A stretch of DNA of 64,000 nucleotides. Origin: Actinomyces dentalis DSM 19115 (GTDB lineage: Bacteria; Actinomycetota; Actinomycetes; Actinomycetales; Actinomycetaceae). The position numbers and the translations under genes were made by a program. This document shows, in pieces, positions 1,407 through 62,403 of this stretch; position 1 is the stretch's first letter, and the number at the start of each line of letters is the position of its first letter. Location of the stretch: positions 5,280 to 69,279 of the forward strand of contig NZ_AUBL01000002.1 in assembly GCF_000429225.1 (NCBI RefSeq), in the 5' to 3' direction. The notes beneath the pieces are model-generated. The model searched no databases. It was given only the letters and a program-made list of their open reading frames with translations, and had not been told where the DNA came from.

Positions 1407-3550
1407 GCACCCCCGCACCCGACGTTGACACGATCCGGCTGACCGGGTTGTCGGCCCGTGGCCGCCACGGCGTCCTGCCATCCGAACGCCGGGAGGGTCA
1501 GCTCTTCGTCGTCGACGTGACTCTCGGCCTGGGGCGGCGCGGCACCGCCGTCGCCGCCGTCACGGACTCGCTGAACGACGCCATCGACTACGGGAAGGTG
1601 GCCGCCTCCGTCATCGCCGTGATCGAGGGCGACCCCGTCAACCTTCTGGAGACCCTCGCCGAACGGGTCTCCGACGCGGTTCTCGCCTACGGGCGGGTCC
1701 AGGAGGTCGAGGTCTGCGTCCACAAGCCCCAGGCCCCGCTCGACGTCGCCTTCGACGACATCATGGTCACCATCCACCGCAGCGCGGAGGGCGCTGGGCT
1801 GAGCCTGGGCGGCGATGCGGCCTCCGACGCGACGCTCGTGGGCGCGCCGGTGGAGAGGCTGGAGCCCGCGCCCGCCCAGTCCTCGCCCGCCCCCGCCCAG
1901 TCCCCGCTCTCGCCCGCGCAGCCGGCGCCCGTGCAGCCCTCGCCCTCGCCGGCGTCGGGGGCGGACGGCCCGGCGGCGCCCGCCCAGCCCTCCCCGGCGC
2001 AGGCGGCGGTCGAGCACGCCGCACCGGCGGAGTCGATCAGCCCCGGGCACGCGGCCGAGGCGGCGGCCGCCGAGGCGCTGGCGCCCCAGTGGCAGGGCCG
2101 GCAGGCCGACGCCCCCCAGCCCGAGCCCTGGAGCGGATCGGCGGGCGGGGGCCGGCAGGGCTGGGATGACGACCAGGGTCAGTCCGACTCCTGGGGCGGC
2201 GACGCCGATGAGATCCCCTCCTGGGGCGAGCCCGCCGCCGGGGCCCCCGCCTGGGGCGAGCCCCTGGCCGGGACCCCCGCGTGGGGCGTGCCCCTGGGCG
2301 GGACCCCCGCGTGGGGCGTGCCCCAGGCCCAGCCCGGCTCCGAGCCCGCCGCTCAGGAGGGCCCGGGGGCGGCGCCGCAGGCCTCCTCCTGGGGCGGGCC
2401 GGCGAGCGGGGAGCCCGCCTGGGACCAGGCGGCCGCCGGCCCCGCGGCCGATCCCCTCGCCGGCGCGGGCAGTGCGCCGCAGGCGCAGGCCGCCGACCCG
2501 GCGGCTCCGCTGGGCGGGGCCCCGGACGCCCCCGCCCCCCTCGCCGGTGACACCCCGTGGCCGGCGGTCTCCGCCACCCCCTCGGCCGCGGCCGACGGGC
2601 AGGCCCCGGCGGCCGGCCAGCAGCCGTGGGGCCCCGCCGCGGACATCCCGCCCACCACCGCCGTTCCGGGCGGCGGCCACCAGTGGGGGGAGGGCGCCCC
2701 GGGCGCCGCCCCCGCCGCCCCTGTCCAGGAGCCCCCGCGCGACCTGCTGCGCGAGCGCCCCGCATCCCCCGCGGCGGTCGTCATCGCCCTGGGCGGCAAC
2801 GCGGGCGGCGTCGTCCCGGCGCTGCGCACCGCCGTGAGCACCCTGCGCGAGACCGCGGGCGTCGAGGTCACCGCCGTCGCCCCGCTGGCCCGCACGGCCG
2901 CCGTCGTCGACCCCGGCGCCGAGCCGCAGCCCGACTTCCTCAACACCGTCGTCCTGATCACCACGACCCTCTCCCCCTACGAGGTCCTCGAGGTCTGCCA
3001 GGGCCTGGAGGCCGCCGCCGGCCGCGTGCGCACCGAGCCCAACGGGCCGCGCACCCTCGACGCCGACATCGTCACCTACGAGGGCGTCACCTCCACCGAT
3101 CCCGAGCTCACGCTCCCGCACCCGCGGGCCGCCCAGCGGGCCTTCGTGCTCGTGCCGTGGGCGGAGGCCGACCCCTTCGCCGAGCTGGCGAACCAGTCCG
3201 TCTCCTCCCTGGCCGAGGCCGCCCCCGACCGCGACGGCGTGCGCTGGCTCGCCCTGGACTGGATCGACTCCGACCACCTGCCCACCCTGCCCACCGGCCA
3301 GTACATCGCCCCGCCGGAGGCGCCGTCGGGCGCGGGACAGCCGGCGCCGTCGGGCGCGGTCGCCGACCAGCCGGCGCCCTCGAGCCAGTCCGGCCACTCC
3401 GCCCAGTCGGCCCAGTCCGGCCAGTCGGCCTGGTCGGGCCAGTCCGCCCAGTCCGCCGCGCCGGCCGCCGATGAGGACGGCGAGGAGGACTGGTCCGAGC
3501 CCCTCAACTGGAACCAGGTCGTGGGCAGGCGGCAGAACGGGCAGTCCTGA
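1403..3550 (+). CDS. folBK: Fused dihydroneopterin aldolase / 6-hydroxymethyl-dihydropterin pyrophosphokinase with long disordered linker
   Basis: This 715-residue bifunctional protein should perform two consecutive folate steps: the aldolase reaction on dihydroneopterin, then diphosphorylation of the hydroxymethyl-pterin that FolP uses. Residues about 5-118 are FolB (GRHGVLPSERREGQLFVVDV, then TLAERVSDAVL). Residues about 455-600 are FolK (ALGGNAGGVVPAL, then GPRTLDADIV and LPHPRAAQRAFVLVPW). Between them is a linker of about 330 residues rich in Pro, Ala, Gln and Gly with repeated WGEP/WGVP units. The last ~110 residues are another low-complexity tail with SAQSGQS repeats and a DEDGEED patch. 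The start is ATG 1403 after GGAAGGAAACACG. An upstream in-frame GTG at 1388 lies inside folP and is less likely. Confidence 0.93.
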   Translation: MSTPAPDVDTIRLTGLSARGRHGVLPSERREGQLFVVDVTLGLGRRGTAVAAVTDSLNDAIDYGKVAASVIAVIEGDPVNLLETLAERVSDAVLAYGRVQEVEVCVHKPQAPLDVAFDDIMVTIHRSAEGAGLSLGGDAASDATLVGAPVERLEPAPAQSSPAPAQSPLSPAQPAPVQPSPSPASGADGPAAPAQPSPAQAAVEHAAPAESISPGHAAEAAAAEALAPQWQGRQADAPQPEPWSGSAGGGRQGWDDDQGQSDSWGGDADEIPSWGEPAAGAPAWGEPLAGTPAWGVPLGGTPAWGVPQAQPGSEPAAQEGPGAAPQASSWGGPASGEPAWDQAAAGPAADPLAGAGSAPQAQAADPAAPLGGAPDAPAPLAGDTPWPAVSATPSAAADGQAPAAGQQPWGPAADIPPTTAVPGGGHQWGEGAPGAAPAAPVQEPPRDLLRERPASPAAVVIALGGNAGGVVPALRTAVSTLRETAGVEVTAVAPLARTAAVVDPGAEPQPDFLNTVVLITTTLSPYEVLEVCQGLEAAAGRVRTEPNGPRTLDADIVTYEGVTSTDPELTLPHPRAAQRAFVLVPWAEADPFAELANQSVSSLAEAAPDRDGVRWLALDWIDSDHLPTLPTGQYIAPPEAPSGAGQPAPSGAVADQPAPSSQSGHSAQSAQSGQSAWSGQSAQSAAPAADEDGEEDWSEPLNWNQVVGRRQNGQS

Positions 3551-4047
3551 TGCGGCGCACGCGGTGGACCGCGGTCCTCGCGTGCTTCGTCACGACCACC
3601 GTCATCTCCTTCATCCTGTTCGACCTCGTGCTCCGGCACCGCGGATGGGTCTCCGGGCTCACCGCGTGGGGGGCCGTCGTCGCCGTCGTCATGACGGTGC
3701 TCGTCCTCGTGGCGGGCCTGGCCGTGCGCCGCCTGCGGGAGCACCGCGAGACGTGGATGACGCCGATCGGGGCGGCGGTGACCGCGGCGGCGGCGCAGGC
3801 CTCCGCGCTCGTCGGCGTCCTCGTCGGGGGCGTCTACGCCGGCGAACTCGTCGTCGCCGTCCTCGCCCCCTCCTCGCCGGCGATGTGCTCCCTGGTGTGG
3901 GCCGCGGGCGGCTGCCTCCTGGCCTGCCTGACCTGGAGCGCCGTCGGGCTGCTCGTCGAGCACTGGTGCGCCATCGACATGAGCGACGACGACGAGGACG
4001 GCGGGGGCCGGAGCTCCGAGGTCCCCGGCTCCGGCGCCCCCGCCTGA
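3550..4047 (+). CDS. DUF3180 family membrane protein
   Basis: This 165-residue integral membrane protein has four predicted segments, near residues 9-27, 35-58, 74-98 and 103-130, and an acidic cytoplasmic-type tail (MSDDDEDGGG). The sequence and its place directly after folK match DUF3180, a family of unknown function that accompanies folate genes across Actinobacteria. Its ATG shares one base with the folBK stop (TGATG), so it is co-transcribed and probably translationally coupled. No catalytic motif is visible. A role in the envelope or in folate-precursor transport would be speculation. Confidence 0.85.
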   Translation: MRRTRWTAVLACFVTTTVISFILFDLVLRHRGWVSGLTAWGAVVAVVMTVLVLVAGLAVRRLREHRETWMTPIGAAVTAAAAQASALVGVLVGGVYAGELVVAVLAPSSPAMCSLVWAAGGCLLACLTWSAVGLLVEHWCAIDMSDDDEDGGGRSSEVPGSGAPA

Positions 4048-4111
4048 CCGGCTGCGCCCCCGCCCCCTGCGTGAGAGGCTGTGCCGACCCGATCATGCGA
4101 AGGAGACCTTA

Positions 4112-4675
4112 GTGACCGCTCCCATTCCCACCGGCGCCCCGGCCCCCGCCGCCCACGGGGCGCCCGCCGCGCCGCCGCCGGCGCCCGCCGCGCCGGCCTC
4201 GCCCTTCGAGCCCGCCGGCGTCGTCTTCGCCCCCGTGTCCCCGCGCCTGATCACCGCCCGGCTGCTCGGGGCCGAGGGCGCCAACGCCGCGGGCGCGATC
4301 CTGGGCGTCGTCCTCGGCGTGGCGGTGAGCCCCTGGCTCCACCTGGTCGCCGCGGCGGCGCTCGTCCTGGCCGTCTGGGAGGCCTGGCTCATTCCGCGTC
4401 AGATCCGCGCCATGGGCTACGCGCTGGCGCCGGACCACCTCCTGTGGCGCAAGGGGATCATGTTCCGCTCCATCAGCGTCATCCCCTACGGACGCATGCA
4501 GTTCGTCGACACCTCCCAGGGGCCCCTCGCCCGGGCCCTGGGAATTGCGGAGGTCAAGCTCCACACCGCCGCCGCCACCACGGACGCCACCATCAACGGC
4601 CTGCCGGTCGGCGAGGCCGAGCGGCTGCGCCAGATCCTGTCCGAGCGCGGCGAGCAGCGGATGGCCGGGCTGTGA
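4112..4675 (+). CDS. Membrane PH-domain protein (bPH2/DUF304)
   Basis: This protein has 187 residues: a Pro/Ala-rich N-terminus of about 45 residues, a hydrophobic hairpin near residues 60-93, then one bacterial PH domain with the typical GYALAPDHLLWRKGIMFR...SVIPYGRMQFVDTSQGPLAR pattern. Proteins of this type (YdbS-like) usually pair with a multi-PH partner. The next gene, which overlaps this one, fits that. The start is GTG 4112 after GAAGGAGACCTTA. The molecular role is unknown. Related pairs in Firmicutes have been linked to resistance against antimicrobial compounds at the membrane, but nothing here shows that. Confidence 0.85.
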   Translation: MTAPIPTGAPAPAAHGAPAAPPPAPAAPASPFEPAGVVFAPVSPRLITARLLGAEGANAAGAILGVVLGVAVSPWLHLVAAAALVLAVWEAWLIPRQIRAMGYALAPDHLLWRKGIMFRSISVIPYGRMQFVDTSQGPLARALGIAEVKLHTAAATTDATINGLPVGEAERLRQILSERGEQRMAGL

Positions 4676-14319: not shown

Positions 14320-14446
14320 GGTCGGGATCCTCGGTTCTGTGTGCGGGAGGCGCGGCGCCCCCGGGGGCGGCGGCGCTGACAAGAATAGGTCGGCGCCGTA
14401 ACCCGGTACCAGCGGGACTTCCGTGACCCGGGCCCCCGATTTCCGC

Positions 14447-14513
14447 GAGCGCGCAGGTTTCCAGTCGAACGCGCACCTCCCAGCTGCGCGTTCGACTGGA
14501 AACCTGCGCGCTC
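14447..14513. repeat. Palindromic extragenic element, copy 1
   Basis: A perfect 29-bp inverted repeat (14447-14475 with 14485-14513) encloses the loop CCTCCCAGC. The arm contains CAGGTTTCCAGTCGAACGCG. The same core occurs at 18188-18264 and 62327-62403. The loop is the reverse complement of the loop in copy 3, so this copy is inverted relative to that one. It lies between the 3' end of the permease gene and the 5' end of the DivIVA-repeat gene. No U-tract follows. Confidence 0.9.
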
Positions 14514-14582
14514 GACGGTGGGGCGCGGCTCGACGGCGGCCCCGAGGGCCTCAGCCCTCCGGGACGCCGCGCCGCCCCGGCC

Positions 14583-18187: not shown

Positions 18188-18264
18188 TCCGCGAACGCGC
18201 AGGTTTCCAGTCGAACGCGTAGCCGGGAGGCGCGCGTTCGACTGGAAACCTGCGCGTTCGCGGA
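18188..18264. repeat. Palindromic extragenic element, copy 2
   Basis: A perfect 32-bp inverted repeat (18188-18219 with 18233-18264) encloses a 13-nt loop. The arm begins TCCGCGAACGCGCAGG and continues through TTTCCAGTCGAACGCG, the core shared with copies 1 and 3. It lies between the PadR promoter and the 3' end of the P-loop kinase gene. Confidence 0.9.
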
Positions 18265-18360: not shown

Positions 18361-19023
18361 TCACATGACGCCGTCGGCCCGGTTCCCGGGAACGGCGAGG
18401 GAGCCGATGTGCTCGGCGATGGTGGCCTCGCACTGGCGCCGCGAGACCGCCCGGCAGCCCCGCTCCATCCAGTCCCGGATGCGCTCGGGCTCCTCCAGGG
18501 CCAGGCGCAGGCCGCGGCGCAGCAGCACCGTCGGCGGCTTGCGGCGCTCGGCCAGGTCCCGGCGCAGCCGGAACCACCAGGTCGCCAGGCGCGGACGGCG
18601 CAGCACCAGGGCGGCGGCCAGCACGCCCTCGGCGCGGCAGCGGTCGATGAGCTCGGCGGCGAAGACCCCCTCCGCCACGAAGGCGTGCGCCCGGCCGATG
18701 TCCAGTCCCGCCCGCCCGACGGCCGCGTTGCAGGGGATCGAGTATATCGGCACCTCCGTCCGGCCGACGGCGCATAAATCCAGGATCGCCCTCATGGCCC
18801 GCTCGGCGTCCCAGCTGTCCGGGTGGTCCCAGTCGATGCGGTTCGCCTCGCACCGGTCCGCCCCCGCCCCGCCGGTGATCCCGCCGCCCACCAGCGGCAT
18901 GCCGGCCTCGTCGCCGTCGCGGTAGAAATCGTCGAGCTTGAGCCGCTTGGCGCCGACGCGGCGCAGCAGGGAGGTCTTGCCCGAGCCCGAGGGCCCGGCC
19001 AGCAGGATGACGCAGGCATTCAC
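18361..19023 (-). CDS. Uridine-kinase-like P-loop NTPase
   Basis: This 220-residue cytoplasmic protein begins with a Walker A motif, LLAGPSGSGKTSLLRRVG (residues about 7-24), followed by LKLDDFYRDGDE, the uridine/phosphoribulokinase-type substrate segment, and DWDHPDSWDAERAM. AFVAEGVFAAELIDRCR corresponds to the Walker B-like strand. It therefore belongs to the uridine kinase family in the broad sense, but the exact substrate cannot be assigned. The start is GTG 19023. A TAGGCT box (19037-19032) lies 8 nt upstream with no ribosome site, implying a leaderless transcript. It is monocistronic. Confidence 0.8.
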   Translation of the reverse strand: MNACVILLAGPSGSGKTSLLRRVGAKRLKLDDFYRDGDEAGMPLVGGGITGGAGADRCEANRIDWDHPDSWDAERAMRAILDLCAVGRTEVPIYSIPCNAAVGRAGLDIGRAHAFVAEGVFAAELIDRCRAEGVLAAALVLRRPRLATWWFRLRRDLAERRKPPTVLLRRGLRLALEEPERIRDWMERGCRAVSRRQCEATIAEHIGSLAVPGNRADGVM

Positions 19024-33403: not shown

Positions 33404-33650
33404 GGGCCGGGTTCGGGCCGGCCCGGAAGTCGGCTTGAGAACGTCAATGCCGTCGTTCAGGATCTTCGCCGGATCTGCGCCGGCCCGGGGGCGGCGGGAG
33501 GCTCTGGTGCGCTCGTTCGCGTCGGTCCCGCGGGCGGGGGCCGGGGCTGAGATCCGGCTGTCCGCCTCTCAGGCGGTCTCACGGGCGGGGCCGGGGATGG
33601 CCGGATCCCGCCCGGGTGCGCCGCCCGGGTCGCGAGCACGTCACTTAACC

Positions 33651-33723
33651 CGCGAGATCGTCACTTAACCCGCGAGCACGTACCTCTAGCAGACGTGCTC
33701 GCGGGTTAAGTGACGTGCTCGCG
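33651..33723. repeat. 73-bp imperfect palindrome with internal direct repeats
   Basis: The arms 33651-33681 and 33693-33723 pair over 29 of 31 positions. The inner 23 bp are perfect. The loop is ACCTCTAGCAG. The arm contains CACTTAACCCGCGAGCACGT. TCACTTAACCCGCGAG is also present as a direct copy at 33641-33656. It is about as long as the palindromes at 14.4, 18.2 and 62.3 kb but unrelated in sequence. Confidence 0.88.
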
Positions 33724-33897
33724 GACCCGGCCGGGGCTGGTCGTCGGTGACGGACTGGGCGTCGGCGTCAGCGGACACGAACTGGGCGACGGCGGGGCGG
33801 TTCCGCCGCCCCGCACCCGCATCACCGCCCTATGAATAACCTTCCGGTCAGGCGGAGCCACTCCAGCCGCTCCCGAGAGGTCCGCGGTGGCGCCAGT

Positions 33898-34017
33898 TGT
33901 CCAAATCTGTTGCAAAGGCCTGGATTCCATCGGGGTGCGTGAAGAGAATCGTTGATATTCCGCGCTTCTTCTCGCGGCCGATCCTGGTCCGAGACGCCTT
34001 TGCAACAGATTCGGACA
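33898..34017. repeat. 120-bp element bounded by 22-bp inverted repeats
   Basis: The ends 33898-33919 and 33996-34017 are inverted repeats matching at 21 of 22 positions (ATCTGTTGCAAAGGC core). They enclose 76 bp that contain a second, weaker inverted pair (GAAGAGAATC against CTTCTTCTC). The element is clearly less GC-rich than its surroundings. Size and structure resemble a MITE-like remnant or a structured RNA, and no coding capacity is evident. Confidence 0.7.
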
Positions 34018-62287: not shown

Positions 62288-62321
62288 CGAGTTCCGCGGA
62301 CGGCCGAGTTCCGCGGACGGC
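62288..62321. repeat. 17-bp tandem repeat leading into palindrome copy 3
   Basis: CGAGTTCCGCGGACGGC occurs twice head to tail (62288-62304 and 62305-62321). A third, partial unit (CGAGTTCCGCG) at 62322 merges into the palindromic element. Confidence 0.85.
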
Positions 62322-62326
62322 CGAGT

Positions 62327-62403
62327 TCCGCGAACGCGCAGGTTTCCAGTCGAACGCGCGGCTGGGAGGTGCGCGTTCGACTGGAAACCTGCGCGTTCGC
62401 GGA
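62327..62403. repeat. Palindromic extragenic element, copy 3
   Basis: A perfect 33-bp inverted repeat (62327-62359 with 62371-62403) encloses GGCTGGGAGGT. The arm carries the same CAGGTTTCCAGTCGAACGCG core as copies 1 and 2. It lies in the convergent gap between the glycosyltransferase pair and glpK. GCGCGCGTTCGCGGA near 62431 is a partial further copy. Confidence 0.9.

Follow-up and report, generated by a model that had tools for sequence, protein, structure and literature searches.

The window analysed here is a 64,000-nucleotide stretch of contig NZ_AUBL01000002.1 of Actinomyces dentalis DSM 19115 (contig coordinate = window coordinate + 5279), and it contains three long palindromes of one family, hereafter F1, as well as members of two other dispersed families, F2 and R3. 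F1 copy 1 (14446..14514, minus strand) has 30-bp perfect arms and a 9-nt unpaired loop, copy 2 (18188..18264, plus strand) has 32-bp perfect arms and a 13-nt loop, and copy 3 (62327..62403, plus strand) has 33-bp perfect arms and an 11-nt loop. These arm and loop lengths were obtained by exact extension and agree with the preliminary description, which had placed three perfect palindromes at these sites. An independent-base estimate at the same composition gives a chance expectation of ~2e-9 perfect palindromes (arms of at least 29, loops of 3-13) per 64 kb. We also confirmed that copies 1 and 3 have loops of opposite orientation, that no T-tract follows any of the three palindromes, as expected from the reported lack of a U-tract, and that F1 palindromes exceed the other hairpins in the blocks scanned in length and perfection. 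The reported proximity to gene 3′ ends likewise held: counted with a simple gene caller from 10 nt outside the 53-nt core, a 3′ end lies at 66 bp for copy 1 and at 98 bp for copy 2, and copy 3 is flanked by a convergent pair of 3′ ends. Copy 2 occupies a tandem gap on the 3′ side of the gene at 18361-19023 (minus strand), and the convergent gap of copy 3 has a counterpart in the related genome G032 that is ~180 bp shorter and lacks the element. A short tandem repeat (GAGTTCCGCGGACGGCC) at 62288-62340 runs into the left edge of copy 3.

The multi-copy intergenic family proposed in the preliminary description extends well beyond these three copies. A search of the strain's own genome (G000; 3.53 Mb in 90 contigs) with the core gave 69 matches at up to three mismatches, with none for the reversed-pattern control. 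Since these matches make 35 F1 elements, the family is not limited to the window. Thirty-three of the elements are intact and two-armed, one (L045) has a right arm without a 20-bp unit, and one (L053) is split by an IS481-like element. Among 49 genomes of the genus, the only second carrier was G032 (94 matches at up to two mismatches), which is close to G000 (90-97% over the matches to one window stretch), and G033 held a single F1 relic without one 20-bp unit. A sample of 396 genomes from the same order, G032 not among them, contained no further carrier: 13 other genomes had one or two matches at two mismatches, and the reversed control matched 14 genomes, once each. Exact patterns (two-armed F1 and an F2 22-mer) had no match in GTDB contigs, a search from which records near the own genome were possibly omitted and which did not return G032. 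The exact pattern gave no F1 match in viral contigs, and BLAST of one F1 copy gave none against plasmids and phages, again with records near the own genome possibly omitted. No paper on palindromic repeats of Actinomyces was found in the part of the literature that our searches covered. An Rfam identity, considered for two loci, was discarded, as all 12 matches (microRNA families and one sRNA family) fell below gathering scores.

F1 is a hairpin-forming, non-coding element of ~70-85 bp. In the family register, an intact copy has a 13-nt loop between a 20-nt arm core and the mirror arm; copy 1 of the window also has a 13-nt loop in this register, and the loop strand that contains GGGAG is the minus strand. 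All 33 G000 arm pairs are found at the same 33-nt offset, even though matches were sought without a spacing rule. The ends are mostly TTCCGCG...CGCGGAA, and the loop consensus of 40 copies is CRGNYGGGAGRYG. Across 80 two-armed copies (33 from G000 and 47 from G032), the stem covaries strongly between arms, with Watson-Crick pairs in 2462 of 2560 stem cells compared to a mean of 2323 and a maximum of 2350 in 500 re-dealings of the arms, a control that ignores the relatedness of copies. The 2560 cells comprise 118 paired changes, 82 single transitions (49 of them in the two outermost stem pairs), and 16 other mismatches. Stem pair -24 is A-T in 40 copies and G-C in 34, and stem pair -19 is C-G in 44 and T-A in 34, the latter form being frequent in G032 and absent from two-armed G000 copies. 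Separate amplification in each species fits such species-typical stem forms as well as conversion does. Several other stem pairs are identical in all 80 copies. In six pairs of copies that share a gap between the two species, differing stem pairs number 16 with a change on both sides and 10 with a change on one side; among the six, flanks are alignable in L056/L228 only (3 and 4, respectively). The motif CGARCGCG is repeated 20 bp apart within the arm, and slippage between these repeats would account for a 20-bp unit having been lost from both L045 and the G033 relic.

Changes in the loop were found as well. In G032, a 183-bp flank and its F1 copy are duplicated (92%) around a small gene cassette at L229, and the loops of the two F1 copies are exact reverse complements, while their stems as printed differ at two bases. 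The equivalent site in G000 (L058) has one F1 copy, oriented as the first L229 copy. A between-species loop inversion, with one mismatch, was detected at L054/L254. In these two cases with matching flanks, the loop is thus inverted at unchanged length, as in template-switch inverted repeats, and arms that change together, as seen across the 80 copies, are also characteristic of such repeats. Loop orientation is kept in L056/L228, L053/L238, and L058/L229 (first copy), and given that three of the four same-gap pairs with alignable flanks keep their orientation, inversion is not frequent. Two further candidates for loop inversion were dropped: the near flanks do not align at L041/L209, and at L034/L244 the near flanks are likewise unaligned and an intact copy in one species faces a remnant in the other. 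L034 and L244 each contain two F1-like elements side by side, the degenerate one being on the left in G000 and on the right in G032. The L229 cassette (L229:3050-4395) comprises two genes between the two F1 copies, next to the duplicated gene end; it presumably encodes a putative antitoxin and a RES-type toxin, with no Pfam or NCBIfam match for the first gene.

Template switching at a hairpin would explain the paired arm changes and the loop inversion together. In single-stranded DNA, the F1 arms would fold into a hairpin, at which a polymerase could switch templates and copy one arm onto the other, keeping the arms identical, and the same switching could sometimes copy the loop backwards, leaving it inverted. 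Selection for an RNA hairpin could be an alternative source of the stem covariation. Placement was determined with a simple codon-based gene caller and is approximate (overlaps of up to 15 bp were allowed). None of 74 classifiable copies lies inside a gene. The G000 copies (n = 35) occupy 17 tandem, 13 convergent, and 2 divergent gaps, with 3 at stretch edges, and the G032 copies (n = 45) occupy 20 tandem, 15 convergent, and 7 divergent gaps, also with 3 at stretch edges. In placement tests that count same-gap copies of both species twice, convergent gaps hold 28 of 74 copies but 21% of intergenic bases (p = 0.0008 pooled; p = 0.01 in G000 alone), and tandem copies lie nearer the 3′ end in 28 of 37 cases (13/17 in G000 and 15/20 in G032; p = 0.003), while the divergent deficit is not significant (0.09 in G000, 0.22 pooled). 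The loop strand showed no bias by chromosome half in G032 (11/7 and 15/12, p = 0.77), with halves taken by coordinate and the origin not located. Beside F1 at L042, L044, L049, L050, L051, and L055, we observed a short repeat of TTTCCGCCGGTTTCG-like units next to a TTATCCACA-like word, which we take to resemble a DnaA box.

The excess in convergent gaps and near 3′ ends, together with the stability predicted for the RNA hairpins of window copies 1-3 (-62 to -76 kcal/mol), would be consistent with F1 elements being bidirectional terminators or mRNA 3′-end protectors kept by selection, and F1 shares with intrinsic terminators a stable hairpin near a gene 3′ end. However, at least four T in 8 nt occurred in 0 of 160 outward flanks, and given this lack of a U-tract, F1 copies are not standard intrinsic terminators. 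Mean flank composition (A 1.8, T 0.8) is the reverse of what a bidirectional intrinsic terminator would show, and the loop strand is unrelated to gene direction (8 same and 9 opposite among the 17 tandem G000 copies). With the absence of F1 from many sister-species gaps described below, these observations make a terminator or protector role rather unlikely as the reason for the family, and selfish or passenger hairpin DNA fits F1 better than ordinary transcription stop signals.

When gene gaps were matched between the species by their flanking genes, 21 of the 35 G000 sites were readable in both. F1 was present in both species in nine of these gaps (L035/L233, L056/L228, L058/L229, C1_7683/G032_B, L041/L209, L053/L238, L054/L254, L034/L244, and L051/L253). 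It was missing from G032, with both flanks read, in the other 12 (the three window copies, L032, L033, L037, the second copy of L038, L042, both copies of L043, L046, and L050), which speaks against conserved terminators; the absence at copy 3 and L037 was read directly from the sequence letters. A renewed search for arms (up to six mismatches) in eight F1-less intervals representing nine sites and in three one-sided stretches recovered only an F2 unit, in the interval of L042. Those three stretches correspond to the first copy of L038, L040, and L048, where one flank could be read and the stretch contained no arm. Stem-adjacent sequence was alignable on at least one side, above 200 shuffles, in four of the nine shared gaps: the right flank aligns clearly in L056/L228 and L058/L229, the left flank aligns in L054/L254, and both flanks align, narrowly, in L053/L238. 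The five shared gaps without alignable stem flanks may therefore represent separate insertions in one gap, and given that F1 is missing from 12 of the 21 readable gaps and that flanks are alignable in only four of the nine shared ones, F1 turnover is fast. The unaligned G000 stretch at absent sites spans 116-377 bp in the seven cases measured, and because it is longer than the F1 element, a gain is no more probable than a loss through deletion. At L037/L245, the tightest of the empty sites, there is just an 8-base overlap of GC-rich sequence, other sites are imprecise, and no constant target duplication was detected at the compared sites. From this turnover between species, we infer that F1 has been mobilised.

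The preliminary description had suggested looking for a REP-associated tyrosine transposase (RAYT). PF01797 had no match in either carrier, although the G000 assembly is in 90 contigs. Across the 59 genomes searched, 2 had a match, as did 5 of 14 controls. F1 elements resemble REP elements in their intergenic habit and general look, but they lack a GTAG/CGTC tag, and both stem and loop are longer than in the classes treated in the available excerpts of PMC3733652. Mobilisation of F1 as REP elements by a resident RAYT (Y1) transposase is therefore extremely unlikely. The preliminary interpretation is supported for the multi-copy, intergenic palindrome family and for the missing U-tract, and is not supported for a RAYT; F1 also has neither the tag nor the short loops of the REP classes. 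A reverse transcriptase (PF00078) was also rejected: each carrier has one match, but the family is not carrier-specific, since it occurs in 20 of 49 genomes.

Alternatively, F1 could be a MITE derived from a conventional DDE insertion sequence, its inverted ends now only 13 bp apart; its inverted-end architecture, its intergenic dispersal, and the different gaps occupied in the two species point this way. We regard this origin as quite unlikely, given the constant 33-nt offset in 33 of 33 intact G000 pairs, the fact that no constant target duplication was detected at the compared sites, and the lack of a further carrier in the 396 genomes of the order drawn without G032. No parent element with F1 ends was found in G000, where the offset is constant, among the 47 two-armed G032 copies that were read, in the 396 genomes of the order, or in viral contigs searched with the exact pattern. 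Of the 85 Pfam families found among 66 neighbouring proteins, the 25 most frequent have metabolic, transport, or housekeeping roles, with no transposase family among them; one of the 66 proteins is the IS481-like transposase of L053, the only case of arms enclosing a transposase, and there the element splits the copy. This IS481-like element (L053 ~3035-4449 in G000) scored 188 bits in NCBIfam, under the cut-off of 224, and lies at the F1 loop, flanked on each side by a repeat of the loop region. The interrupted F1 copy of G032 carries an IS5-family element (L254 ~740-1940; 215.6 bits, cut-off 110) in one arm, with CTAG on both sides. Both interrupted gaps have an uninterrupted F1 copy in the other species (L238 and L054, respectively).

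F1 is not the only palindrome family in these genomes. F2 (33623..33731, no strand assigned), which was not listed in the preliminary description though it lies inside the same window, is built of 20-bp units in mirror order. In the window element, an 11-nt loop separates a left side of two units plus a cap from a right side of one unit plus a cap. Unit numbers differ between the two sides of F2 copies, and a loop example is CTGCTAGAGGT. At up to three mismatches, F2 had 220 matches in G000, 108 in G032, and 0 in the 47 other genomes; F2 is more abundant than F1. Near the F2 element lies R3 (33899..34016, no strand assigned), a third dispersed family, whose members form a long, imperfect hairpin; measured from start to start, the inverted ends are 97 bp apart in most listed pairs. 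Arm matches number 136 in G000 and 245 in G032, where a related lone-arm repeat is included in the count. R3 also occurs at L031:2670-2800 and is sometimes close to F2. R3 as a MITE with a visible parent was not upheld, as the one G032 lone-arm repeat that was read had no transposase beside it. A scan of 400 kb from five other species detected a palindrome family with a 19-bp period in G025 (L194:715-792 and 4581-4658), whose pattern also occurs in G010 (L255, L257, and L259) and in no other of the 49 genomes. This family has an F1-like plan, a half-site repeated at 19 bp and mirrored, with a different sequence.

The 20-bp-period direct repeats, CGARCGCG in F1 and CGCGAGCACGT-like in F2, and the stem pairs that are invariant in all 80 copies would suit binding sites of a chromosomal DNA-binding protein, with half-sites ~20 bp apart in mirror symmetry. 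However, the occupied gaps differ between the sister species, the families are present in only 2 of 49 genomes, and the putative protein has no candidate, and we consider such a role very unlikely for F1 and F2. The two families do share mirror-ordered 20-bp units around a similar loop, with the unit orientation opposite, and the F1 unit matches the reverse complement of an F2 unit at 14 of 20 positions, a value reached by 26 of 2000 shuffles with the variants chosen afterwards. A common origin of F1, F2, and F3 was rejected, as F1/F3 and F2/F3 were not above chance. It is conceivable, if unlikely, that F1 and F2 represent branches of a single, hitherto undescribed class of mobile palindromes, propagated in G000 and G032 by a hairpin-processing enzyme other than RAYT and with loop inversion as part of the cycle.

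Taken together, F1 is a new REP/MITE-like palindrome family, real and fast-changing, and by the tests made here it is not a RAYT-mobilised REP. Our preferred explanation, which we consider probable, is that F1 is a dispersed hairpin DNA repeat acting as a REP/MITE-type passenger, with its arms kept by template switching. Spread of this passenger to new sites might involve an enzyme acting in trans or accidents of replication or recombination. Most copies would persist beyond gene 3′ ends, as they are least harmful in that position, and once present, they may add some 3′-end or termination effect. F1 represents a natural multi-copy record of how near-perfect palindromes are maintained in a bacterial chromosome, and two loop inversions can be seen in it. 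It also points to REP-like elements that may spread without RAYT, and a mobiliser, should there be one, would move hairpin DNA in a new way.

MITEs are non-coding elements with inverted ends that are dispersed in genomes and vary between relatives. F1 is likewise non-coding, has inverted terminal repeats, and is dispersed and variable between relatives, but its interior is only 13 nt, and no parent transposase or constant target duplication was found. With REPs and REPINs, F1 shares the character of short, many-copy, intergenic palindromes. According to the excerpts of PMC3733652, however, whole REPs are 20-40 bp, while F1 arms alone are ~30 bp, and CGTC REPs have loops of 4-5 nt compared to the 13-nt core loop of F1. 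Without a tag or RAYT, F1 is unlike the RAYT-mobilised REPs described in those excerpts; the CGTC REPs reported there resemble F1 in having no dedicated transposase. REPs are known as targets of insertion sequences, and the part of PMC1525189 reached by term search names IS110, IS3, and IS5 and not IS481. Two F1 copies are likewise interrupted, by IS481-like and IS5-family elements, although two copies do not show a target preference. A further parallel is with template-switch inverted repeats, in which, as in F1, the arms co-change and the loop inverts at constant length. Template switching is described as a source of both arm homogenisation and spacer inversion in the consulted sections of PMC8604942 and PMC8794818, the latter including an actinobacterial example of loop inversion. 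As far as those sections go, they treat yeast coding sequence and RNA genes, while F1 is a dispersed family of intergenic repeats.
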